The position numbers were made by a program, and so were the translations under genes. The notes under the pieces are model-generated. The model did no database searches and was not told where the DNA came from. It worked only from the letters and a program-made list of their open reading frames with translations. A DNA stretch of 47,735 bases from an uncultured Bacilli bacterium (GTDB lineage: Bacteria; Bacillota_I; Bacilli_A; RFN20; CAG-826), in NCBI GenBank assembly GCA_944327845.1, contig CALVHN010000008.1, positions 1 to 47,735 on the forward strand, read 5' to 3'. This document shows positions 37,465 to 47,735 of the stretch, piece after piece; position 1 is the first letter of the stretch, and each line of letters starts with the position of its first letter.

Positions 37465-38083
37465 TAGATAAAAGCAAGTTCTAAAATAAATAGAACGGTT
37501 GAAAACCAAATTAGAGTTGCAGGATTTCCATCAAGAAAAACCTTTGAATTATTTGATTTTAATTTTCAACAACTTTAGATATTGAAAAAATTAAGGATTT
37601 AAGAACATTAAGATTCATAGAAAATAAAGAAAATGTTGTATTTTTAGGAACTCTAGGAGTTGGTAAAACTCATTTAGCAACTGCTCTTGGAATCGAAGCA
37701 ATTGGACATAAATATTCAACATATTTTATTAATTACCTGTTTTAATTCAAAATTTATTAAAAACAAATTTTGAAAATAAATTGGAAGAAAAATTAAAGTT
37801 ATATTCAAAATATAAAGTTTTAATTATAGATGAAATTGGATATTTACCAACAAATATCCAAGGAGCAAATTTATTTTTTCAACTTATTGCAAGAAGAAAT
37901 GAAAAAAATACAACTATTTTTACAACAAATAAAAATTTAGGAGAATGGGACGAAACCTTTCAAGACAATGTAATATCAGCAGCGATTATTGATAGAGTCT
38001 TGCGCCATTGCAATGTAGTTAAAATTATTGGAGAAAGCTATAGATTAAAAGAAAGTAAGGCATTATTTAATAAAAAAAATTAA
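37465..38083 (+). pseudogene. istB: Degenerate istB (IS21-family helper ATPase)
   Basis: Three fragments in different frames together give an IstB protein. The first is ENQIRVAGFPSRKTFELFDF. The second runs from LDIEKIKDLRTLRFIENKEN to the Walker A GTLGVGKTHLATA and ends near 37,745. The third starts near 37,738 and holds the Walker B LIIDEIGYLP, then FTTNKNLGEWDETF and IIDRVLRHCNVVKIIG. Two frameshifts and a stop break it, and the N-terminal part is not recognisable. The transposase gene istA is absent, so the copy is dead. Confidence 0.85.
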
Positions 38084-38360: not shown

Positions 38361-39620
38361 TCAGATTTTTTCTAATCTATAAGGTAACATATCAATATTT
38401 ATTTCGAAAAGTTTAACTTTTGATTTTGCTTCACTTGCAGTTAAAAGTCCATAATCAGTAAACTCATTTAAAATCTTAAAAGCGCCTTGCTTAGTAATAT
38501 CGTTTTTTATCCAAGAAGCAAAATCTTTATAAGTAAACTTGCCTTTTGAATTGACCATTATCTTCTTTAAATATACTTTTTCGTTTTCTGTTAAAACAAT
38601 ATTTTTGTTTTTAAGTATTGTGTCTGCGTATTCAACATTTTTATAACAATTAGTTTGATTGACTAAAATTTTAAAGATATAGATCAAAAAATAAGTTAAA
38701 TCATTATTTGAGTCTCTCGTGTTTCTAAGAGCTTGATAATATTTGTTTTTTGTATCATCAATTGCTTCTGATAGAACAGGGACCATTAAAGAATTTGCTA
38801 ATAAGCTTATCCAAAACGAAACCATTCTTGCTGTTCTCCCATTATAATCAAAGTAAGGATGAATATAGACTATATAAAAATGAGCAATATTAGGCAAAAC
38901 TACATTAGTCATACTATCGCCTTTAGATATTTCATTATTTACATACTCAAAAAGTGAGCCCATACAACTTTCGATTTTATCATGAGGACAACCGTTATAA
39001 CTATCTACTTCAACTTCATCGTATCTATAGTACTCGCCTGACCTTAAGTTATAATCATCTTCTAAACATCCTTCGCTAAGAATACAATATAGTTTAAATA
39101 AATTTTCTTTGTTAAATGTTGGCTTAGTCAAAACAAAATCAACTGCTTTAACCATATTTTTTATAATATGATCATTTAGGTTTTGAGGTTGAATTTTTTC
39201 TCTTGTAAGTTCGTCAATCCTTTTTCTTGTTGAATTTACTGCCTCAATAGACAATGTTCCTTCAATTTCAGAATAAATTCTAGAGCGTATTATTTCACTT
39301 TGATATCGAGTTGCAATCAAACTATTGTGCTTTTCGAAATCATCAGATATAGAATTTAAATAAAGTTGAAAATAGTCTAATAATTCTCTGCAATTAAAGT
39401 AATATATGTTTTTTCCATCAAAAGTATTAAGTTTAATATCTTTTCGAAATTGATTAAAATTTATTGCTTCGTTTTTTTTATAAGTCAGAAAATTATTAAA
39501 TTCTTCTACAGAAAAATTGAATCCATACCTTTGATTGTATAAGATGTCACTTTTCTCTAAATATTTTTCATGAATCATATAATTTAATAAAGATTCAAAT
39601 TTTTCTAATTTGTCAACCAT
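38361..39620 (-). CDS. Fic-domain protein with altered motif
   Basis: 419 residues. Fic proteins transfer AMP (or other phosphate groups) to target proteins. The Fic motif is HPYFDYNGRTAR at 254-265; the catalytic His254 and the NGRxxR end are present. The glycine before Asn is replaced by Tyr259, which sits in the phosphate-binding loop, so activity may differ from classical AMPylators. A SEIEG stretch at 117-121 resembles the class II inhibitory helix, and the last ~80 residues look like a winged helix. No good ribosome site precedes the ATG. It stands alone beside an IS remnant in the island. A regulator or toxin role is possible. Confidence 0.85.
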   Translation of the reverse strand: MVDKLEKFESLLNYMIHEKYLEKSDILYNQRYGFNFSVEEFNNFLTYKKNEAINFNQFRKDIKLNTFDGKNIYYFNCRELLDYFQLYLNSISDDFEKHNSLIATRYQSEIIRSRIYSEIEGTLSIEAVNSTRKRIDELTREKIQPQNLNDHIIKNMVKAVDFVLTKPTFNKENLFKLYCILSEGCLEDDYNLRSGEYYRYDEVEVDSYNGCPHDKIESCMGSLFEYVNNEISKGDSMTNVVLPNIAHFYIVYIHPYFDYNGRTARMVSFWISLLANSLMVPVLSEAIDDTKNKYYQALRNTRDSNNDLTYFLIYIFKILVNQTNCYKNVEYADTILKNKNIVLTENEKVYLKKIMVNSKGKFTYKDFASWIKNDITKQGAFKILNEFTDYGLLTASEAKSKVKLFEINIDMLPYRLEKI

Positions 39621-39699: not shown

Positions 39700-39867
39700 T
39701 TAATATTTAACTAGCATTACATATAAGCTATTATCTATATCCATAATCTCAGCCTTACCACTATTAATTTCCATAAATACTTCTCTAACTATATAGAAGT
39801 TAGAGAAGATATCTTCTAATAATATGTAATAAGAAAATGCCCAATTTCTCGAGCAAATATCTTTCAT
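39700..39867 (-). pseudogene. Small ORF, likely remnant
   Basis: 55 codons from the internal ATG (MKDICSRNWAF...), with gene-like composition (YIVREVFMEINSGKAEIMDI) but no ribosome site and no recognised family. The same frame stays open upstream through the border repeats at 39,911-39,978, which suggests the 5' part was replaced when the adjacent cassette arrived. An 11-bp hairpin (CTTCTCTAACT, 39,780) lies inside. Confidence 0.35.
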
Positions 39868-39910
39868 TTTGAGACCATTGCTTTGTATCAAAATGTTAGT
39901 TATAAAATGT

Positions 39911-39978
39911 GGTTGCACATCAATATTGATACATTTAGCCCTTTTTACAAGGGGTTGCACTACAACATTGATACATTT
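39911..39978 (+). repeat. Two direct repeats at the left border of the cassette
   Basis: GGTTGCAC, nine variable bases, then GATACATTT occurs at 39,911-39,936 and 39,953-39,978, with 42 nt between starts. The second copy contains TACAACATTGATACA (39,961-39,975), whose exact reverse complement is at 44,797-44,811. Confidence 0.7.
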
Positions 39979-39982
39979 CAAA

Positions 39983-40005
39983 GGGGATGGGAGGAATCGA
40001 ACGGA
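39983..40005 (-). other. tRNA T-arm-like sequence at cassette border
   Basis: Right after the nuclease stop, the minus strand reads GTTCGATTCCTCCCATCCCC, like the 3' half of a tRNA (T-loop plus acceptor strand). No matching 5' half is present. Two more GTTCGAYTCC sequences lie at the other border (44,820 and 44,889). They may be attachment-site remnants. Confidence 0.4.
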
Positions 40006-42849
40006 TTATTCAACAATTTTCCATCTAAAGCCAAAGGCCTTTTCCTGCCTTCCACTACAACAATTTGAGATTTGAGACGCAGCAGAACGGCTTTTCCCAT
40101 ATTTCTCAGCCGCCTTTGTCATCGAAGAAAACACTTCCCCAGTGTCGATGTTCATCACTTTAGTTGAAATGGACTTTGAACAACGAGGGCAATTAGGATG
40201 GTTGATCCTGTTACTAGGTGCCGCTTCCCATTCGTATCCACAATCAGGACATTTCCACCAAACTTTTCTATTCGACTTTGGTTTCAATTGCGAAGGCGAA
40301 ACATCGTTTTTCTCATAATTCCAAAATTTGAGCACTTCAGGATTTAAAGTGGCTAGATCATTAACTCCTTCAATAGCATATCTGCCACTGCAATATGGGC
40401 ATCCTGCCTTTTGTCTATTGTGGATTAATGCTTGATAAGAATGTCCTTCAGGACACAACCACCAAACTTTTTTAGAGAAGCTAATTCCAATATTATGTGG
40501 ATCAACAAAAGTATTCTTTTCGTAATCCCATTCTTTGAGCAAATCAGGGAAAAGAGTAGCGAAATCATTAAAGCCGCTCAACACCAACTTGCCACTACAA
40601 TAAGGACATCCAGTTCCTTTCATTCTAGACTTTATTTGCGCTTTCCACCTATGCCCTTTGGAACATATCCAAGAATAGGTCATATCACCATAGTTGCCTA
40701 GGACATCGGTTGGTGTTAGTCCTTCATTGTTTTCATAATCCCATTCCTTTGCTAAATCAGGATTTATAGTTGCCAAATCATTCACCCCAACAATTACACT
40801 TGGTTTCTTTTTCGGAGATAAGGACAAGCCCCTTAATTCCGAATCGGTAATTGAGCCTGATGCTTCAGTTGAATTTATTTTCTTTCTTTCACTAAGAGAT
40901 TTCTTTATCTCTTCAGCTCGGCAAATCGGGCATTTACCACCTGAAACGCGATTAATGATAGAAGCAACCCATTGATGCCCGCATTTGCCTTTCCACCATA
41001 TTTGTTGGGTAGAAGTTTTCGAGAACATCGTGGGCTTAAGATTTAAATTTTTCGTTGGATGCCACTCTTCTGCCAAATCAGGGCACTGATATGCAAATGA
41101 ATTTGTTCTTAGTTGATGCTTAAAAGAAGCCAAGATTTCATTTGAATCATCATCTATGTTGATAGAAATTGTTTTATGTGGCTCGTCAAGAGATTCAATG
41201 ATGTTTGCAATGATTTGATCTAATGTATAGGAATCCGATAATTTGTATATCGTTACACAAGGCGTGGATTCCATATCAGGACAACCTTTTTCTCTTACTC
41301 TGATTAAATGGATGCCGTGCTTTTCACAAATATGATTCTTCCTTATATCTTTTTTGATATCTTGATGCCAATTTTCGCCGTCGTATTCAATTCCAATGGA
41401 CTTGCTTGGTAAATATATATCCAATTCGACTTTTAGATGCCTATCCCCATTAATAGCTTCAGGAAAAGCCTTGGAAATATAGAAGTAAATTGCTTGCTCA
41501 GGAAAAGAAGACCTAAGATACTTGCTACATTCAGGGCATCCTGATCCATTATGTCTTTCAACTAGTGCAGATTTCCACGAATGGCCAAATTCGCACTTCC
41601 ACCAAACTTCGTTATGGGATCCAGCTATAAAATCTTCAGGTTTTAAATCACCATTTTTCTCGTAATCCCATTCTTCGATTAAGTCGGGATGAATGGTGGC
41701 AAAATCATTGAACCCTCGTAAAAGCCTATGGTTAGAGCAATAAGGACAACCGTTGCCTGCGTGTCTTTGTTCTACTGACGCTTCATAAGAATGCCCTTTT
41801 GGGCAAACCCACCAAACTTTTGTCCTTGATGAAAATGATACTTCCTCAGGCTTTATTGAGTTTTTATTGTAATCCCATTCAGTTAAAAGTTCAGGGTGCC
41901 GCTCTGCGAATGACCCTCTATTTTTAAGAATGGTTTTATATGCCAAAGCCTTGCCTTCTTCTATGCCGCATTTTGGACACCCACTATGTCTATTGGTTCT
42001 ATTTCCTGCTGACGCTTGATATGACAAGCCACATTTCGGGCATATCCACCAATATTTTTTAAGGCTTCCCGCGAATATGTCAGACGGAACAATCGGAAAA
42101 TTCTTTTCGTAATCCCAATCTTTTGATACCTCAGGATTCGTTGTTTCTAAATCATTAAAACCTTTTAAAAGCTTCTTGTGGGAACAATAAGGGCAACCAG
42201 TGTTTCCGAATGCTCGAGCATCAGGAGTCGCTTGGTATGAATGCCCATTAGAACAAATCCACCAAAACTTTTTTCCACTCCTCTTTAAAATGTTTTCAGG
42301 TCTGATTGGATAATTCTTTTCGTAATCCCATTCAGTAGCCAACGATGGAAAAGAAGTCTTGAAATCATTCTTACCAATAATAGGTTTTTGTCCTGCGCAG
42401 TAAGGACACCCAGTATGTCCTATTGTTCTAGAAGAAACTCGGCTTTCATAGCTATGCCCATTTGGGCAGACCCACCAAACTTTTTTATTAGATTTTGAAA
42501 GAATATTTGATGGTTTTATTTCTCCGTTTTTGGAATAATCCCATTGATTGGCAATATCAGGGTAAAGGGTTTCTAAATCATTAAAACCTTTGTAGGCCTG
42601 CTTAGGATATTTTGAAATGAACGGGCAACCGTTTTCTTGCCTTGAATAAATTGCTGCCTCCCATTCGAAATCAAAATGACGACCAGTGTTTGGATCATCG
42701 TATGGTAGAAACCACCAAACCTTCTTTTTAGAAGAAGCCGTGACATCTCTTGGAGTAAGTGAACCGTTTTTTGTTGGATGCCATTCCTTAGCTATTTCAG
42801 GGTAAAGGGTTTCTAAATCATTAATACCTCTAATTAATTTCTTACCCAC
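40006..42849 (-). CDS. Giant zinc-ribbon nuclease with PD-(D/E)xK core and NUMOD1-like end
   Basis: 947 residues. About ten copies of a ~68-residue zinc-ribbon/treble-clef module (DUF4379-like) share EWDYEKN, then KKVWWxCPxGHSYxA, then GCPYC: six before and four after a nuclease-like core at ~449-585. In that core Glu452, Asp477 (ELDIYL), Glu488 (GIEYDG) and a late LIRVRE fit a PD-(D/E)xK/Vsr-DUF559 fold. Residues ~895-947 resemble a NUMOD1 DNA-binding tail of homing endonucleases. Module 1 has lost most zinc ligands. It starts with GTG, overlapping the HTH gene's stop by one base; AGAAGG lies upstream. Likely a DNA-targeting nuclease; the target is unknown. It is visibly richer in G+C than flanking genes. 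Confidence 0.8.
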   Translation of the reverse strand: MGKKLIRGINDLETLYPEIAKEWHPTKNGSLTPRDVTASSKKKVWWFLPYDDPNTGRHFDFEWEAAIYSRQENGCPFISKYPKQAYKGFNDLETLYPDIANQWDYSKNGEIKPSNILSKSNKKVWWVCPNGHSYESRVSSRTIGHTGCPYCAGQKPIIGKNDFKTSFPSLATEWDYEKNYPIRPENILKRSGKKFWWICSNGHSYQATPDARAFGNTGCPYCSHKKLLKGFNDLETTNPEVSKDWDYEKNFPIVPSDIFAGSLKKYWWICPKCGLSYQASAGNRTNRHSGCPKCGIEEGKALAYKTILKNRGSFAERHPELLTEWDYNKNSIKPEEVSFSSRTKVWWVCPKGHSYEASVEQRHAGNGCPYCSNHRLLRGFNDFATIHPDLIEEWDYEKNGDLKPEDFIAGSHNEVWWKCEFGHSWKSALVERHNGSGCPECSKYLRSSFPEQAIYFYISKAFPEAINGDRHLKVELDIYLPSKSIGIEYDGENWHQDIKKDIRKNHICEKHGIHLIRVREKGCPDMESTPCVTIYKLSDSYTLDQIIANIIESLDEPHKTISINIDDDSNEILASFKHQLRTNSFAYQCPDLAEEWHPTKNLNLKPTMFSKTSTQQIWWKGKCGHQWVASIINRVSGGKCPICRAEEIKKSLSERKKINSTEASGSITDSELRGLSLSPKKKPSVIVGVNDLATINPDLAKEWDYENNEGLTPTDVLGNYGDMTYSWICSKGHRWKAQIKSRMKGTGCPYCSGKLVLSGFNDFATLFPDLLKEWDYEKNTFVDPHNIGISFSKKVWWLCPEGHSYQALIHNRQKAGCPYCSGRYAIEGVNDLATLNPEVLKFWNYEKNDVSPSQLKPKSNRKVWWKCPDCGYEWEAAPSNRINHPNCPRCSKSISTKVMNIDTGEVFSSMTKAAEKYGKSRSAASQISNCCSGRQEKAFGFRWKIVE

Positions 42850-43025
42850 TATTTCATTTTCCTTCTTAATTCATCTAATTTTCTTTGTACTTTAAAGATG
42901 GGATTGAATTTGCCGTTCTCATATCTATTGACCGATGCGAAAGAGATACCTAAAAGCTCTGTGAACTCAGTTTGGGTCATCATCATCCTCAATCTAATGT
43001 TCTTGAATTCTTCGGGGGTAAACAT
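42849..43025 (-). CDS. Small XRE-type helix-turn-helix protein
   Basis: 58 residues from ATG at 43,025 to TAG at 42,849. The sequence has a Cro/CI-type helix-turn-helix: MMTQTEFTELLGISFASVNR followed by YENGKFNP, the standard XRE recognition-helix pattern. AGGAGATAAGT precedes the start. It lies between the HEPN-like gene (2-nt gap) and the nuclease (1-nt overlap), so it is made from the same message. It probably represses the cassette's own promoter or guides nuclease expression. It could also be an antitoxin, which is inference. Confidence 0.85.
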   Translation of the reverse strand: MFTPEEFKNIRLRMMMTQTEFTELLGISFASVNRYENGKFNPIFKVQRKLDELRRKMK

Positions 43026-43027
43026 AC

Positions 43028-43456
43028 TTATCTCCTATAAACCTCACTGCAAAGTTTTATTCTTACCTTCTCGACGTTCCTGAAAACAACCGAGAGCCTG
43101 TCATGGTCCTTTGTCAGTTTTTGGCACTGCTTCGCATACTCATCGGAATAAATGAAATTTTCTTCGTACATAAACTCGGTGAAAACCTTATGCGCCCAAT
43201 GGTTCCTGTTTTTGGATAATTGTTTGAGGAAATTATAGTCGCCGCTAGATATGTTCGGCTTCCCATCCTCGTTGTCTAATGCCTTTAGCAGATCAATCAT
43301 CTGCCCAAGAGTCCTGTTTTCGACCCTGTCCAAATTATCGTTGACATTGCCTTCATGCATATATGCGTAGATAAGCTTCAAATCGTGTTCGACGACTTGG
43401 TAGTACATTATCGTCTCGCTATGGAGAATCTTGAATTCATCGAAGTTCATAATCAT
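43028..43456 (-). CDS. HEPN-like protein with RNxxxH motif (copy 1)
   Basis: 142 residues, all-helical in appearance. EHDLKLIYAYM at 23-33 and Arg84-Asn85-x3-His89 (RNHWAH) match the layout of HEPN RNases, in which Rx4-6H is catalytic. A closely related protein is encoded at 45,105-45,542 (shared ALDNxDGKP, DY-L, RN-x3-H and DHxRL). Its ATG overlaps the stop of the upstream DUF2075-like gene by 4 nt (ATGA). HEPN proteins in such islands are often toxins or defence effectors. No MNT-type antitoxin partner is seen. G+C-rich codons unlike the host. Confidence 0.65.
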   Translation of the reverse strand: MIMNFDEFKILHSETIMYYQVVEHDLKLIYAYMHEGNVNDNLDRVENRTLGQMIDLLKALDNEDGKPNISSGDYNFLKQLSKNRNHWAHKVFTEFMYEENFIYSDEYAKQCQKLTKDHDRLSVVFRNVEKVRIKLCSEVYRR

Positions 43457-43764
43457 TTAATCTCCAATGTGTATTCCATGTACTTTTGGAAGGTCGTGTT
43501 TTTCCAAAAGCCGAGCCTGATGCCATCGATTCCCCTCGTGAGGAGGATGTAATAGATATTCAAGACGGACAGCGTGAATTCGAATTTGTTCTTCTGGTCA
43601 ACCATCTCGTCGGCATTGAATTTCCCATTCACATTGTAGAAATGGTCTGGATTGGCATACAAATGCCCATTGGCGTCGATTTCCAAGTCATTGCCGATAA
43701 GAACGCCTACTTTATTCAAATCAAGTCGAAAATGTCGATAAACACTAGTGTTTTTCTTTAACAT
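43453..43764 (-). pseudogene. C-terminal fragment of a DUF2075 (helicase-like) protein
   Basis: 103 codons. LNKVGVLIGNDLEID and NIYYILLTRGIDGIRLGF match the end of DUF2075 proteins (Schlafen-group DNA/RNA helicases of ~600 residues, with VGVIIGxDL and YxxLLTRG motifs). The ATPase part is missing, and the frame begins inside the end of the upstream gene with no proper ribosome site. It is probably what remains after an internal deletion, though the 3' coupling to the HEPN-like gene is intact. It could instead survive as a short stand-alone domain. Confidence 0.6.
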
Positions 43765-44296
43765 ATTTCCAATGGCATTCTCTTAGTTCACTTCTCAATC
43801 GCTCTTTCGAGAACTTGGCACCGATATCCTCGCAGATGAGAGAAATCAATTGCCAAAGCATATCTTTGGGTGCGGCATCGATATAATCGCACAGGTTTTG
43901 GCTATTTATGGCTTTGGCTTGCTCATCCAACCCACTGAAGTAAACGCCATACCTGATTTCCGCCTCGGCTTGCTCGTACAGGTCAAAGCCATCGAAGACT
44001 GGTCCTGTGGCGTAGCTTTCGTTCAAAGGGAACATGATGGCGGCATCGAACACCTTATCGTTGATGGTTAGCCAGGAATGGTCGAAAGCACCTCCGTACA
44101 ATCCAGCTTCGCCGATGCAAGGGGTGGATTCGATGCCCAAAACTTTGCATATCGCAAAAAGCACCGCCACGCTAGGATGGCAGGCACCGCTCCAACCCTG
44201 TTCGTCTATGAATTGGCAGACCAGGCTAAAAGCGCGCTTGAACTTCGATTCGTTTTTTATTCCCAAATGGATATTCTTGATTGTCTTCATAATCAC
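43745..44296 (-). CDS. Transglutaminase-like cysteine protein
   Basis: 183 residues with an apparent Cys-His-Asp triad: Cys39 in WSGACHPSVAVLF, His73 in FDHSWLTI and Asp84 in KVFDAA. This spacing is typical of transglutaminase/papain-like folds, which cleave or modify proteins. No signal peptide, so it acts in the cytoplasm. The ATG overlaps the preceding gene by 4 nt (ATGA), and the 3' end overlaps the DUF2075 fragment by 20 nt. The exact family was not recognised. G+C-rich, foreign in composition. Confidence 0.55.
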   Translation of the reverse strand: MIMKTIKNIHLGIKNESKFKRAFSLVCQFIDEQGWSGACHPSVAVLFAICKVLGIESTPCIGEAGLYGGAFDHSWLTINDKVFDAAIMFPLNESYATGPVFDGFDLYEQAEAEIRYGVYFSGLDEQAKAINSQNLCDYIDAAPKDMLWQLISLICEDIGAKFSKERLRSELRECHWKYVKEKH

Positions 44297-44726
44297 CCAA
44301 AATACTTCCGAATGATGTTCCTCTTCTCGGCATCGAATTCCTCTTCGATGAGGTCATTGATTTCCTCGGGCAGATCACCGATATAGAGCTTCAGGAGACC
44401 CTTGAGCTTCTTGAGCCTCTCGTATTGCTTGTCTGCGCCAACCTGCTCCTTCTCATTCACGAGGTTACTGACCAACATAGTCGGATCCTGGGAATAGCAG
44501 GATTTGAAGTTCTCATAGGGTAGTCGGTGAGCTTGCCTTCGTTGTGGAGGGTCTCCACGGCAACCGCCACTTTTGCCTTGGTGGATAGCTTCTCGTCCTG
44601 ATGATGGGTTTTGTAGATTTGGACAAGCTGATTGAAAATGAAGGAGTAACTGGAGCGAATATCGGTCACGACAGTCTCCCTCTCCCCCAACGAAAAAATA
44701 TCTTCGTTATGTTCGTTTGGACTCAT
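44293..44726 (-). pseudogene. First cassette gene, unknown, with a frameshift
   Basis: Two frames join near 44,522. The first (44,457-44,726) gives 70 good residues (MSPNEHNEDIFSLGERETVV...) and then runs into an unlikely tail. The second, open from there to 44,293, gives YENFKSCYSQDPTMLVSNLV and then a helical end (KKLKGLLKLYIGDLPEEIND). One missing base after GACTACC accounts for it, restoring about 144 residues. Mostly helical, no recognised family. Strong AAGGAGGA lies 8 nt before the ATG. Either a true mutation, a sequencing error or programmed frameshifting. Confidence 0.6.
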
Positions 44727-44753
44727 TTAAATCGTCCTCCTTATGTGATTTAG

Positions 44754-44762
44754 ATTATAGCA
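44754..44762 (-). promoter_or_regulatory. Extended -10 promoter of the cassette
   Basis: TGCTATAAT on the minus strand is an ideal extended -10 element, 28 nt before the first cassette start and about 35 nt inside the right inverted repeat. The -35 (TTTTAT at 17 nt) is poor, as is usual with extended -10 promoters. All six genes follow without a visible terminator. Confidence 0.7.
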
Positions 44763-44796
44763 TTGATTCTTTATTAATAAAAGGAAGGCGTGTGGG

Positions 44797-44811
44797 TGTA
44801 TCAATGTTGTA
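44797..44811 (+). repeat. Right 15-bp inverted repeat of the cassette
   Basis: TGTATCAATGTTGTA is the exact reverse complement of TACAACATTGATACA at 39,961-39,975. The pair encloses 4.85 kb containing the six-gene G+C-rich operon and its promoter. Flanking bases do not extend the match. Confidence 0.75.
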
Positions 44812-44819
44812 CTAAGGTA

Positions 44820-44910
44820 GTTCGATTCCCCCCAACAAGCCTGATTTCGTGCGCTTCCCTATGCACTTCTATGGGAATCCTCGGCATAGTTCGACTCCCA
44901 CCATTCCACC
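44820..44910 (+). other. Two tRNA T-arm-like half sequences
   Basis: GTTCGATTCCCCCC at 44,820-44,833 and GTTCGACTCCCACCATTCCA from 44,889 have the T-loop pattern GTTCGANTC plus a 3' arm, but the bases before each cannot form the matching 5' arm. They resemble tRNA 3' ends left at an integration site. Covariance-model search would decide. Confidence 0.4.
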
Positions 44911-44962
44911 TAAAAACCTTCCAAACACCCAAAACAGGTGTATATTTGGTCGAAAATTCATT

Positions 44963-44990
44963 AAAAAAGCCCCAATAATCGTATTGGAGC
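44963..44990 (-). terminator. Terminator of the second HEPN-like cassette
   Basis: On the minus strand GCTCCAATA, loop CGAT, TATTGGGGC is a fully paired 9-bp stem (one U-G) followed by TTTTTT. It ends transcription of the leftward 45,105 gene. The plus strand gives the same stem with one mismatch and AATTTTTT, so it could work both ways. Confidence 0.8.
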
Positions 44991-45028
44991 AATTTTTTAA
45001 AGATGTCTTTGTGCTATCGCTTTGATAC

Positions 45029-45083
45029 AAAACGACACCCCTACTAGCAAAACGAAACCCTTACTAGAAAAACGACACCCTAT
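45029..45083 (+). repeat. Three tandem 20-bp direct repeats
   Basis: AAAACGACACCCCTACTAGC, AAAACGAAACCCTTACTAGA and AAAACGACACCCTATAAAG stand head to tail with no spacer. They resemble protein-binding iterons, or the multiple internal repeats found at IS21-family ends; no transposase lies next to them. Confidence 0.75.
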
Positions 45084-45104
45084 AAAGTGCAGATTTTATC
45101 GCTA

Positions 45105-45542
45105 TTATTTGTATCCAAAGAACCTTAATCTTGCATCTTCAACAGAGCCATATAATTTTGCTAATCGATTATGATCATTCACTAATCTTTTTGCAGACTT
45201 TTGAAACGCAGAATTCCAATCTTCATCCTGCTCGTAAGAAAATTCCATGTAGCACTCATGAGCATAATAATTTCTAATGTTTGTTATGTTTCTTAAAAGT
45301 TCATAATCAGCATTAGTAAAATATGGTTTGCCATCAGAATTATCCAATGCTTCCAATTCAGATATTGTCTTTCCTAATGTCCATTTTTCAAATTGTGCTT
45401 TTTGATTTGCGTTCATAGGAATTCTCATACCTGAGTAGATAAGTTTTACATCATGCTCAATACACTGGCAAAAATACATGATTCTGCCAACACAATAATG
45501 ATAATCAGCAATATTTGTTATTTTTCTAATCGAATCAATCAT
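45105..45542 (-). CDS. HEPN-like protein with RNxxxH motif (copy 2)
   Basis: 145 residues, a homologue of the 43,028-43,456 product. Both share IEHDxKLIY, TLGxxI, ALDNxDGKP, a tyrosine-rich approach, then Arg90-Asn91-x3-His95 (RNYYAH) and NDHNRLAKLY. The motif is that of HEPN ribonucleases. It begins directly after the stop of the helical partner gene (no gap), so the two are co-translated. Its codons are A/T-rich like the host, unlike copy 1, so the two copies reached the island separately. Toxin or abortive-infection function is an inference. Confidence 0.65.
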   Translation of the reverse strand: MIDSIRKITNIADYHYCVGRIMYFCQCIEHDVKLIYSGMRIPMNANQKAQFEKWTLGKTISELEALDNSDGKPYFTNADYELLRNITNIRNYYAHECYMEFSYEQDEDWNSAFQKSAKRLVNDHNRLAKLYGSVEDARLRFFGYK

Positions 45543-46109
45543 TTATTTACCTAACCTACTCCCATATCCTTTTACTCTTTTTTTCTTGGCTTTGTCTAAT
45601 TGATATAAAATCTTGTCAATATCAGAAAATTTAATACCACAACTCTTACAATTATTTTCCCAATATTTATAACAGTCCTTTATATACTTTAGATAAATAC
45701 TACTCGAATCATCTTTAGTAAAGTTAGGAGCATCAACATTATAAAGTTCACGATAAGCCCTCTGATCAATAATTGGAAATACATCTTGGTTATAAAAATG
45801 CAAAATTGATGATGCCATCGGCAATCTTATTCCTTTCGTATTAACTAAAGAAACTATCAAATCACCAACTTGATTAATTACATCTTTCTCGCTGTTACAT
45901 AAAGAATTGATTTTAATTTTGCTAATATCCAACAATTTTTTAAATATAGATGGGTCCAGATTTGCTTGTCTATTTGTTTTCCATAGAATAATCATGTTGA
46001 TGATATCTTGTTGCTCTTCTATTTTATTATTGTTTTTTATGCGAGAAAAAATTTTCTCTCCTGAATCGTAAGTATATTTTTCTAATGCTTCCTCATATTT
46101 ATTGCTCAT
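45543..46109 (-). CDS. Helical partner protein, HhH/DNA-glycosylase-like
   Basis: 188 residues, predicted all-helical and cytoplasmic. The central NTKGIRLPMASSILHFYNQD followed by VFPIIDQRAYREL resembles the helix-hairpin-helix region of DNA-glycosylase folds (a glycine/proline turn, then small residues, then a conserved Asp). No catalytic Lys is evident at the usual place. A basic tail (KAKKKRVKGYGSR) may bind nucleic acid. Directly followed by the HEPN-like gene, it may be its immunity or targeting partner. The family was not firmly recognised. Confidence 0.5.
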   Translation of the reverse strand: MSNKYEEALEKYTYDSGEKIFSRIKNNNKIEEQQDIINMIILWKTNRQANLDPSIFKKLLDISKIKINSLCNSEKDVINQVGDLIVSLVNTKGIRLPMASSILHFYNQDVFPIIDQRAYRELYNVDAPNFTKDDSSSIYLKYIKDCYKYWENNCKSCGIKFSDIDKILYQLDKAKKKRVKGYGSRLGK

Positions 46110-46117
46110 ATGCGTAC

Positions 46118-46423
46118 CTACCTATATTTTCCAAAGTATTTATCTTCACCAACTTTTCTGGCTTTTATTGCTTCTCTTTCAGTTTTGAATCTTCCTAATA
46201 AATGCGTTTTTCTTTGAAACATTATCTGAGCAACCCATAGCTTCCTGTTCTTATCGTAATGGACTCCCCTAACACCTGATGTGCTGTTTCTGTTAAGCTT
46301 TCTATCTTTCTTAAGAGCAAACTTCATCGTCCCATCAATTAATCCTCTATCAAGTGAGGAAAGGCTCGCCCTATCCTCATCGTTCTTGCATCCGTAGGAA
46401 ACAATCGCTACACAGCGGCACCT
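46118..46423 (-). pseudogene. 5'-truncated AP2-domain DNA-binding gene
   Basis: The last 69 codons give a clear AP2 domain (STSGVRGVHYDKNRKLWVAQ, then LLGRFKTEREAIKARK), as in phage and integrative-element proteins. The same frame remains open for a further 32 codons upstream with no start codon (SYGCKNDEDRASLSSL), and this looks like the end of the usual N-terminal zinc-finger-like region. The 5' half is therefore missing. If used, translation could begin only at the internal ATG (46,327), which lacks a good ribosome site. Confidence 0.7.
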
Positions 46424-46456: not shown

Positions 46457-46969
46457 TCATATCAGCGTTATGCCTCTATATTTATCAGAATTCTTCCACT
46501 CTTCATAACTACTATAAGGAATGAATGCATCATCTTCATCACTACATTTTTGGACCAATAAATTCCAAATACCAATATTTTTATCGTCATAATCATCGAT
46601 GCAACAATAAAGTAAACTAAAGTAATACTTTGAATCAGTAGTATATAATTCACAAGCAGCCATAGGTAGAAACCTTACCTGTTTAAACCCGTCTATAGTG
46701 TATTCAGCTCCAGTTCCAGTATATTGACTTGAAATATAGGTCCCACTGACATAACTAATAAGTTTACTTACTTGCTCATCAAAATTACTTATTTTCGAAG
46801 AAACATTGTACGCAAATAAATTTTTTAATTCCTTATCATTTTTTTGCAAGATGTTATTAACAACCGATATGTATTCTTCTCTTGCCATATTGTCATCACT
46901 TTTATATGTACAAGAAGACATTAATACTAATGATAAAGCACACATAGCTGTTTTAATAATAGTTTTCAT
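46457..46969 (-). CDS. Small lipoprotein, DUF5104-like
   Basis: 170 residues from ATG 46,969, preceded by AGAAGGTGG. The longer GTG frame at 46,987 begins inside that ribosome site and is rejected. The signal peptide ends with the lipobox LMSSC, so it is lipid-anchored. The middle (FDEQVSKLISYVSGTYIS) and the end (YYFSLLYCCIDDYDDKNIGIWNLLV) recall DUF5104 lipoproteins of Firmicutes, of unknown function. It stands alone, with no obvious operon partner. Assignment to the family is from memory and moderate. Confidence 0.6.
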   Translation of the reverse strand: MKTIIKTAMCALSLVLMSSCTYKSDDNMAREEYISVVNNILQKNDKELKNLFAYNVSSKISNFDEQVSKLISYVSGTYISSQYTGTGAEYTIDGFKQVRFLPMAACELYTTDSKYYFSLLYCCIDDYDDKNIGIWNLLVQKCSDEDDAFIPYSSYEEWKNSDKYRGITLI

Positions 46970-47066
46970 AACGACAACACTCACCACCTTCTATATTTTT
47001 TATATTTTAACATGAATTGATACCACCATTATGAAAAATTGGTGAATAAGAAAAAGACCAGGGATT

Positions 47067-47735
47067 TTACTTCCTAGTCTCTACTTTCACCTTGTATCCT
47101 GAATTGAATATGAATTCGATGCCTTTATCTCGGTGGACTACCGCCTTATCAATCATGATGTTAAATAGCTCTTCATCGAATTCGGTTATCGCATCAGACT
47201 TGCTTCTTAGATTCGAAATGAAGGTGCTTATTTTGTTTCTTTTATCTATCACTTCTTCCTTTTGACGCTCTAAGTCTTTTAACTTTTGAATTAGCTTATC
47301 ATATTTGAGTTCTAGCTCTTTTTGTTTAATCTCATCCGTTTCTTTTGAAGAGTGGATAAGGATTTCAACCTCATTAACAACAGCTTCTATATCTTCATGA
47401 ACCTTCTTGATTTTCTCTTCGATGCTTTCAACACTGACAATTTGATTAAGGACTAGTTCTAGGTTATTAAGAATCTCACCCTTATTTACAATCATCTTGT
47501 TATATGCACCGACAAACATCGCTTTTATCTCTTCTTCGTTCAAAGTCGGAGTTTGGCATTGTTCTTTATTCTTTTTATCGAATTTATAATTGCACTGCCA
47601 TATAGTTTTCTTATATTTATCAGTCGAATGCCAGACTTTAGATCCGTATAAATGTCCACAATCTGCACAGATTAATTTTGAAGAAAAGCAATTTTTTGAA
47701 GAATAAGAATATCTAAGTTCTGCTCTTCTTTGAAG
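47067..47735 (-). CDS. Large serine recombinase, C-terminal part (runs off the window)
   Basis: 222 codons are visible, the N-terminal catalytic domain lying beyond the right edge. A recombinase zinc-ribbon is seen: Cys-x2-Cys (LICADCGHLYGSK), then WQCNYKF and a fourth Cys 12 residues on (EQCQTPTLNEEEIKAMF). A long coiled-coil (about 75-180 of the visible part) and a short beta end (GIEFIFNSGYKVKVE) complete the typical DDE-independent serine integrase tail. Enzymes of this kind integrate and excise mobile elements, so it is the best candidate for moving the island. The first part is cut by the window, not by mutation. Confidence 0.88.
   Translation of the reverse strand, partial: LQRRAELRYSYSSKNCFSSKLICADCGHLYGSKVWHSTDKYKKTIWQCNYKFDKKNKEQCQTPTLNEEEIKAMFVGAYNKMIVNKGEILNNLELVLNQIVSVESIEEKIKKVHEDIEAVVNEVEILIHSSKETDEIKQKELELKYDKLIQKLKDLERQKEEVIDKRNKISTFISNLRSKSDAITEFDEELFNIMIDKAVVHRDKGIEFIFNSGYKVKVETRK

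Follow-up and report, generated by a model that had tools for sequence, protein, structure and literature searches.

Staphylococcal cassette chromosome (SCC) systems employ two serine recombinases (CcrA/CcrB) and have one or few chromosomal targets. The ssrA islands of Dehalococcoides (McMurdie 2011; PMC3146451) are tandem islands linked to the transfer-messenger RNA (tmRNA) gene with the serine recombinases DsiB and DsiA, the former being CcrB-like; 15 of 31 islands have no integration module and are suspected to have been mobilised together with their neighbours. These islands are the nearest precedent for the element analysed here, with one target instead of many. This element, B, lies in a stretch of 47,735 nucleotides (the window; GenBank assembly GCA_944327845.1, contig CALVHN010000008.1, positions 1 to 47,735 of the forward strand) from an uncultured Bacilli bacterium of the CAG-826 lineage. 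By sequence comparison it is a real, discrete and transferable unit in which no recombinase was detected, and its ends differ from those proposed in an earlier sequence-only reading of the same DNA. We regard it as probable that element B is a site-specific, integrase-less cassette that carries attachment half-sites directed at transfer RNA (tRNA) genes, is moved in trans by large serine recombinases (LSRs) of phages and originated from the end of a phage. Coordinates are collected in Table 1.

The limits of element B were set by an empty site and by comparison of junctions. At six loci of relatives (L002, L003, L004, L007, L015 and L010), the sequences corresponding to window positions 39834–39910 and 45000–45080 are contiguous, and the junction comparison places the crossover at (A)CA. 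In a DNA search of 59 genomes, its own included, with five candidates scored per genome, the interior was matched in only four other genomes, as fragments, and both flanks were matched widely. The sequence-only reading had predicted a cassette of six genes bounded by a perfect 15-bp inverted repeat and present or absent as a unit. A discrete unit is confirmed, but the repeats do not mark its limits: the true edges lie 192 and 53 bp outside the right and left copies, respectively. The repeat itself is perfect: TACAACATTGATACA is exact at both positions, and no third copy turns up in the window even when two mismatches are allowed. Shuffled sequence gave a chance mean of 0.30 occurrences with at most two mismatches, and 1 of 100 shuffles gave two or more, a control that covers this word only and not the chance of any 15-bp inverted pair in an A+T-rich stretch. 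Nearby, 104 inverted pairs with imperfect matching, none longer than 29 nt, were detected. The left copy is included in the 3′ end of element B (termed Lin), and in relatives the right copy does not survive as a full 15-mer, reading CACAACATTGATACA in genome G547 and AACAACATTGATACA in genome G535.

The unit is, as had been noted, richer in G+C than its surroundings (40.7% versus 25.8% in the rest of the window), and the view that it holds no transposase is upheld, with no transposase or recombinase family found among its seven open reading frames (ORFs). Both attachment halves are present in element B and no integrase was found inside it, which is what defines a cis-mobilizable element (CIME) or an integrase-less satellite. 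Searches with the block returned one 3% match, to the nuclease-like gene znNuc, in plasmid records and no match in phage records; no tRNA or Rfam RNA, suspected from T-arm-like words, was found inside the block. Element B lies between the end (Rout) of an upstream, LSR-bearing and probably prophage element (A), which carries the HEPN2 gene, and the beginning (Lout) of a downstream cassette (C) with a Fic gene.

The joined site was searched for in 26 genomes of its genus; 20 of them gave matches, and the site divides sharply at a single point into two halves. Among 41 distinct 5′-half junctions with enough upstream DNA, 22 start immediately (offset 0) after the CCA of a tRNA or tmRNA gene called by ARAGORN (five Trp, five Leu, three Arg, three Met, two tmRNA and one each of Thr, Pro, Ser and His), giving nine kinds of target, 11 abut a 3′ half and eight are of other types. 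By eye, three of these eight (L095, L187 and L161) resemble 3′ halves, two (L201 and L202) show a short tRNA-like 3′ fragment and three (L012, L108 and L109) are neither tRNA-like nor a 3′ half. The 31 3′ halves run into ACA (26), GCA (two), TCA (one) or ATA (two); CA thus stands at the crossover in 29 of 31 3′ ends of the family, and it does so on both sides of element B. The 5′ half begins CA^ (the caret marks the crossover) and in most end types has a TTGATACA-like arm about 16 nt in, followed by a terminator hairpin. In the 3′ half, TGTATCAA begins 26 nt before the end, which reads ...ACA^. The spacing of about 16 nt after the core is seen in three 5′ end types (Lout, that of the RhuM cassettes and that of viral contig L297) and the 26-nt spacing in three 3′ end types (Rout, Lin and L297), and inverted arms are readily recognised in three end types, as they are in the 3′ half of element B. 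As this comparison shows, elements with such ends are placed precisely after the CCA of many tRNA genes or follow the ...ACA end of another element, and so stack in tandem.

Parts of element B recur in other genomes. Its 192-bp 5′ region is found directly behind a tRNA-Thr CCA in G547 (contig C19; 96% identity) and G535 (contig C39; 93%), which belong to two genera other than that of the window; the match continues in G547 through the promoter into the gene hel (95% over 465 bp), at which point the contig stops, and extends over 306 bp at 94% in G535. Together with the empty site, these occurrences in two other genera bear out the earlier suggestion of a foreign, transferable cassette. Approximately 38 bp of the 5′ end are found behind tRNA-Glu (G135), tRNA-Trp (G474) and tRNA-Arg (G076). 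Lin is present in 11 of 196 genomes of the family; one of these is the window's own, and it is the sole carrier among the sampled genomes of the genus. Lin is also matched at 97% in viral contig L297, behind LSR, XRE and cargo genes. Given this distribution of the 5′ region and Lin outside the genus, the donors were probably other genera of higher G+C content. Neither the exact Rout^Lout pattern nor the 5′ pattern of element B was found in viral contigs.

Ends of the same kind enclose other small cassettes. A 470-amino-acid (aa) SLFN AlbA_2 protein is accompanied by a 184-aa protein, transglutaminase-like by eye and with no Pfam match, in G007 (behind tRNA-Trp, with the second gene broken), G017 and G003 (stacked). 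In G018 (tRNA-Arg) and G025 (tRNA-Thr), DUF3795 occurs together with a comparable protein of 471 aa. Cassettes of RhuM and XRE genes occur in G009 and G020, and a different RhuM and XRE cassette, with Lin, behind tRNA-Met in G452 and G467, behind tRNA-Thr in G541 and, as a damaged copy, behind tRNA-Arg in G521. A lone 197-aa gene lies between a B-type 5′ end and Lin in G542. Genes for a 94-aa protein and for znNuc follow the B-type 5′ end behind the tRNA-Glu of G135 and the tRNA-Trp of G474, both contigs stopping short of any 3′ half. LSR proteins had no match at the small-cassette loci, where other recombinase families were not searched. Three longer elements (L191, L197 and L205) continue, by eye, into phage-type genes. 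The 94-aa protein, which has no Pfam match, recurs in several genera as the first cassette gene or near hel (L061 186–470, L292, L293 and L294), and its leader resembles that of hel.

In the window, the likely mobiliser is represented by a fragment of an LSR gene that precedes HEPN2 and Rout. In L278, L279, L087 and viral contig L297, a tandem LSR pair is followed by cargo and then by a 3′ end. The order in L297 is LSR1, LSR2, XRE (70% identical to the XRE of the window), a C5-methylase-like gene (by eye), two genes, Lin and a 5′-type arm; Lin and the arm that follows it there correspond to what the attachment site of such a phage (attP) would look like. Both LSRs of L210 match the Pfam Resolvase, Recombinase and zinc-ribbon families. 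Small XRE proteins 62–70% identical to that of the window stand before varied cargo and then a 3′ end in L087, L088, L090 and L297; the cargo is GmrSD-type, C5 methylase with HpaII-type, or other, and the XRE gene and the end are constant. HEPN2 recurs as cargo behind phage-type LSR genes, as does AP2 in L210 (loci: window 45105–46327, L210 and L279). Elsewhere in the window's own genome (G000, contig C6, 12495–12572; L197, L207 and L111), a family 5′ end stands behind the tmRNA gene, and from there to the contig start the genes are, by eye, of methylase and phage type. This 5′ end may be the opposite terminus of the element that has its LSR end in the window.

In the mechanism that we propose for the cassette, recombination at the CA core would be catalysed in trans by a tandem LSR pair. 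The pair would be supplied by prophage-type elements that share the same 3′ ends and encode it next to cargo and attachment site. The cassette probably began as a phage end (XRE, cargo and site) after loss of the phage body, and hel with tgl, the helicase stub and HEPN were probably captured later. We infer the mobilisation in trans by LSRs, the origin from a phage end and the function in defence. A number of observations weigh against this account. Neither excision nor a circular form nor recombination was observed. Five LSR loci (L210, L281, L282, L283 and viral L298) have no recognisable end of these types. LSR matches are present in 16 of the 26 genomes of the genus and absent from eight of the 20 with site halves, in which the helper would therefore have to arrive with a phage. 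At the 5′ end of element B there is no clear TTGATACA arm but only a weak one (AATACG at 18 nt), and two of the 31 3′ ends read ATA instead of NCA. Of element B, the G547 and G535 contigs contain the 5′ part alone, and both end within it. The first 44 bp of the element occur alone behind tRNA-Leu in G109, and may therefore represent a terminator of chromosomal origin that was taken along. Finally, tyrosine integrases are the usual users of tRNA targets (PMC4383910), and the catalyst may therefore be an enzyme other than an LSR.

This last point leads to an alternative that we consider improbable, in which a tyrosine recombinase or some other host or phage enzyme recognises the ends instead of the LSR pair. 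Several LSR loci without these ends would agree with it, as would the classic role of tRNA 3′ ends as tyrosine-integrase targets (PMC4383910), but the crossover is restricted to a CA dinucleotide between inverted arms, and LSR pairs stand closely upstream of cargo and 3′ end in four elements, with an LSR fragment in the window itself. A dead remnant is a stronger contender, although still an unlikely one: a prophage or island would have lost its body by deletion, leaving a CIME-like relic that moves only if an adjacent element excises together with it. The frameshifted hel, the helicase stub, the likeness of the XRE–cargo–Lin part to the end of phage-type elements and the position beside an LSR-bearing element all fit such a relic, and accretion of this kind has been proposed for the Dehalococcoides ssrA islands (PMC3146451); yet small cassettes of a single kind recur at different tRNAs and in different genera, and the 5′ part of element B stands at another site in G547 and G535.

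The sequence-only reading had seen a defence operon bounded by inverted repeats, with six genes cooperating under one repressor and combining a supposed RNase-like toxin, a protein-modifying enzyme and a DNA nuclease. The tight gene spacing, the one promoter kept in two relatives and the HEPN and nuclease-like genes are compatible with this, and the spacing and single promoter stand; the true ends outside the repeats, the occurrence of the genes apart elsewhere, one frameshift and one stub tell against this view, which we judge to be quite improbable. The sequence-only reading had suggested looking for its gene order elsewhere; the six genes were found together at no other locus. Least probable is transposition of the IS21 type with a 7-bp target duplication. 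It would account for a near-identical 7-mer common to the left and right edges, for repeated arms that resemble transposase-binding arrays and for an istB remnant about 2 kb away, but the 7-mer contains the shared site core and the junctions lie at tRNA CCA ends. IS21 ends were tried as a source of the half-sites and rejected, since 13 stretches surrounding the stronger IstB hits were compared and none has these ends at the insertion sequence; in the single contig with both IstB and these ends the two are 3–5 kb apart, and L131, a weak IstB/DnaC-type locus, has a 26-nt match to the ends (E 0.009). No istA or istB was encountered between the ends of element B. The istB (IS21) remnant of the window (37524–38083), decayed and with stops, is matched by the PADLOC DrmD model at E 3e-22, and DrmD calls on such istB fragments may therefore be false.

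Beyond the integrase-less cassette itself, a wider reading is held only tentatively, at somewhat less than even chances: a family-wide, integron-like traffic in which temperate phages with a tandem LSR pair accept any tRNA 3′ CCA and a pool of small integrase-less cassettes of defence or conflict genes, bearing the same ends, hop, building mixed arrays of phages and defence genes. The cassettes would use phage enzymes to move between tRNA genes and onto one another's ends. If this is true, single defence genes move with no mobility gene of their own, by sharing phage attachment ends, and a phage sharing those ends targets a feature that is abundant in every genome, the tRNA 3′ end. The ends would then provide a simple sequence handle for discovering new cargo genes, and an LSR accepting many tRNAs would be unusual.

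Table 1. Features of element B and of its neighbours in the window (positions in nucleotides).
Feature	Position	Strand	Remarks
LSR, C-terminal part (element A)	47067..47735	-	Cut by contig end
HEPN-type protein, second (HEPN2)	45105..45542	-	Cargo of element A
3′ end (Rout) of upstream element A	45004..45085	-	Joined to element B
Mobile unit (element B)	39908..45003	-	5,096 bp; from empty site and junction comparison; recombinase gene not found
5′ end of element B	44812..45003	-	CA^TCTTTAAAAAATTGCTCC, hairpin terminator, leader
15-bp repeat, right copy	44797..44811	-	Upstream of promoter
hel, family unknown	44293..44726	-	Frameshift splits it into ORFs 44457–44726 and 44293–44478
tgl, transglutaminase-like	43745..44296	-	Cys39, His73 and Asp84 by eye; 87% identical to L061
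SLFN-g3/DUF2075 helicase, C-terminal stub	43453..43764	-	Profile positions 273–349 of 354
HEPN-type protein (HEPN1)	43028..43456	-	RNxxxH motif
XRE-family small DNA-binding protein	42849..43025	-	Two relatives directly behind LSR gene (L087, L297)
znNuc, 947 aa	40006..42849	-	Ten DUF4379 treble-clef repeats around Vsr/REase_MTES_1575-like stretch
3′ end of element B (Lin)	39908..40001	-	Two TGTATCAA...GTGCAACC repeats, terminal ACCACA
15-bp repeat, left copy	39961..39975	+	Within 3′ end site of element B
5′ end (Lout) of downstream element C	39834..39907	-	Hairpin terminator
Fic-domain protein	38361..39620	-	Cargo of element C

The cargo of element B most likely consists of conflict or defence genes (a HEPN RNase and a zinc-finger nuclease) and is partly decayed. 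The leftward genes follow each other with overlaps or gaps of 4, 20, 4, 2 and 1 nt, as had been described, but the first of the supposed six is two ORFs in different frames. The single extended −10 promoter postulated for them was confirmed (TGCTATAAT, minus strand, 44754–44762) and is present in two relatives. Third-position G+C is 0.57–0.58 in tgl, the helicase stub, HEPN1 and hel (read across the frameshift), 0.48 in XRE and 0.32 in znNuc; outside the unit it is 0.19–0.24 in the Fic, HEPN2, 45543–46109 and 46457–46987 ORFs and 0.33–0.34 in the AP2 and LSR ORFs. The block is therefore itself a mosaic.

The hel gene is intact as a 146-aa ORF in L061 (Erysipelotrichaceae metagenome-assembled genome RUG14536) and in L294, and its frameshift in the window is possibly an assembly error. 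In L061, hel and tgl adjoin and the DNA homology ends approximately 10 bp behind tgl. The Tgl protein matches Pfam Transglut_core3 only below threshold, and its predicted structure, with a predicted local distance difference test score (pLDDT) of 47.4, is too poor for use. Among 198 genomes of the class tgl was found in one, the window's own; it was absent from phage records, and the four plasmid regions read around tgl carry no annotation resembling the other genes of the window. A search of viral contigs for tgl and HEPN1 gave no confirmed match. The gene described as a DUF2075 piece does derive from a helicase, of which only the C-terminal end is left. A full-length 653-aa helicase is followed in L021 by an XRE protein 72% identical to that of the window; the MazG–DUF2075–XRE cluster of L021 is not matched here, the window having only the C-terminal helicase stub and XRE.

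Of the proposed HEPN-like, RNase-like protein, the motif is supported: RNxxxH, which fits the R-x4-6-H motif of HEPN RNases, is present in 16 of 16 aligned sequences, the two of the window included; TGA was read as Trp in this alignment, which matters for L028 and L039. The predicted model of HEPN1 (pLDDT 77.7) derives from a two-sequence alignment. Fold comparison placed an unnamed Thermus protein at the top (Z 10.5) and MNT-HEPN toxins next (Z 8.4–9.0, with root-mean-square deviations of 2.6–3.1 over 102–111 residues), a resemblance to HEPN proteins that is not decisive, the values being within the range of helical bundles generally, and Foldseek returned nothing at E ≤ 0.001. The HEPN1 and transglutaminase-like ORFs look intact. 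HEPN1 occurs in 15 of 295 genomes of the phylum, its own included, and was not found in plasmids. Its relatives have varied neighbours (12 of 15 loci read by eye), the two closest sharing a 59-aa neighbour. A Rout-type 3′ half stands some 0.65 kb from the closest relative (G150, 53%), and a relative (68%) of HEPN2, itself a distant paralogue of HEPN1 (33%), lies between LSR2 and a 3′ half in G015; HEPN genes are therefore recurrent cargo.

The znNuc protein matches DUF4379 at E 5e-172 and REase_MTES_1575 below threshold (19.2 bits versus 38.2), and relatives are found in 80 plasmid records. Among solved structures, znNuc is matched in sequence by proteins named DUF4379 and mS66, which belong to mitochondrial ribosomes, and its C-terminus may be NUMOD-like.

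Literature on the use of tRNA CCA ends by LSRs, on defence satellites that lack an integrase and on defence cassettes flanked by attachment (att) sites yielded no paper whose title or opening abstract lines describe such a system; subscription journals are thinly covered in the literature searched, so that novelty is unproven. For the cargo, one study (NAR 2025; PMC12350094) places CapR/DUF4379-like and EDxHD/Vsr-like proteins among homing endonucleases. These enzymes combine treble-clef-type repeats with a Vsr-like nuclease, a combination that znNuc may share; they are found in phage introns and have three to five repeats, whereas znNuc belongs to a cassette and its ten repeats surround a nuclease-like stretch in the centre. 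With respect to mobility, integron cassettes and clusters of attC sites lacking integron-integrases (CALINs; PMC11389934) resemble the system proposed here in being gene units with a 3′ recombination site, in forming arrays and in depending on a recombinase in trans, but the units described here have split half-sites with a CA core. The multi-targeting LSRs of Durrant 2022 (PMC10083194) show the combination proposed here of one LSR group, many target sites and a dinucleotide core; in the present elements the targets share a tRNA 3′ end. CIMEs with accretion and mobilisation, SCC and pseudo-SCC with CcrA/CcrB resemble element B in being att-flanked units with no integrase that stack in tandem, and differ in having one or few chromosomal targets rather than many tRNA genes. 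The Dehalococcoides ssrA islands (PMC3146451) have a single target (ssrA), insert in its T-loop and show a direct repeat of 20 bp, whereas the elements described here use many tRNAs, insert right after the CCA, include small cassettes and are associated with phage-type LSR pairs.

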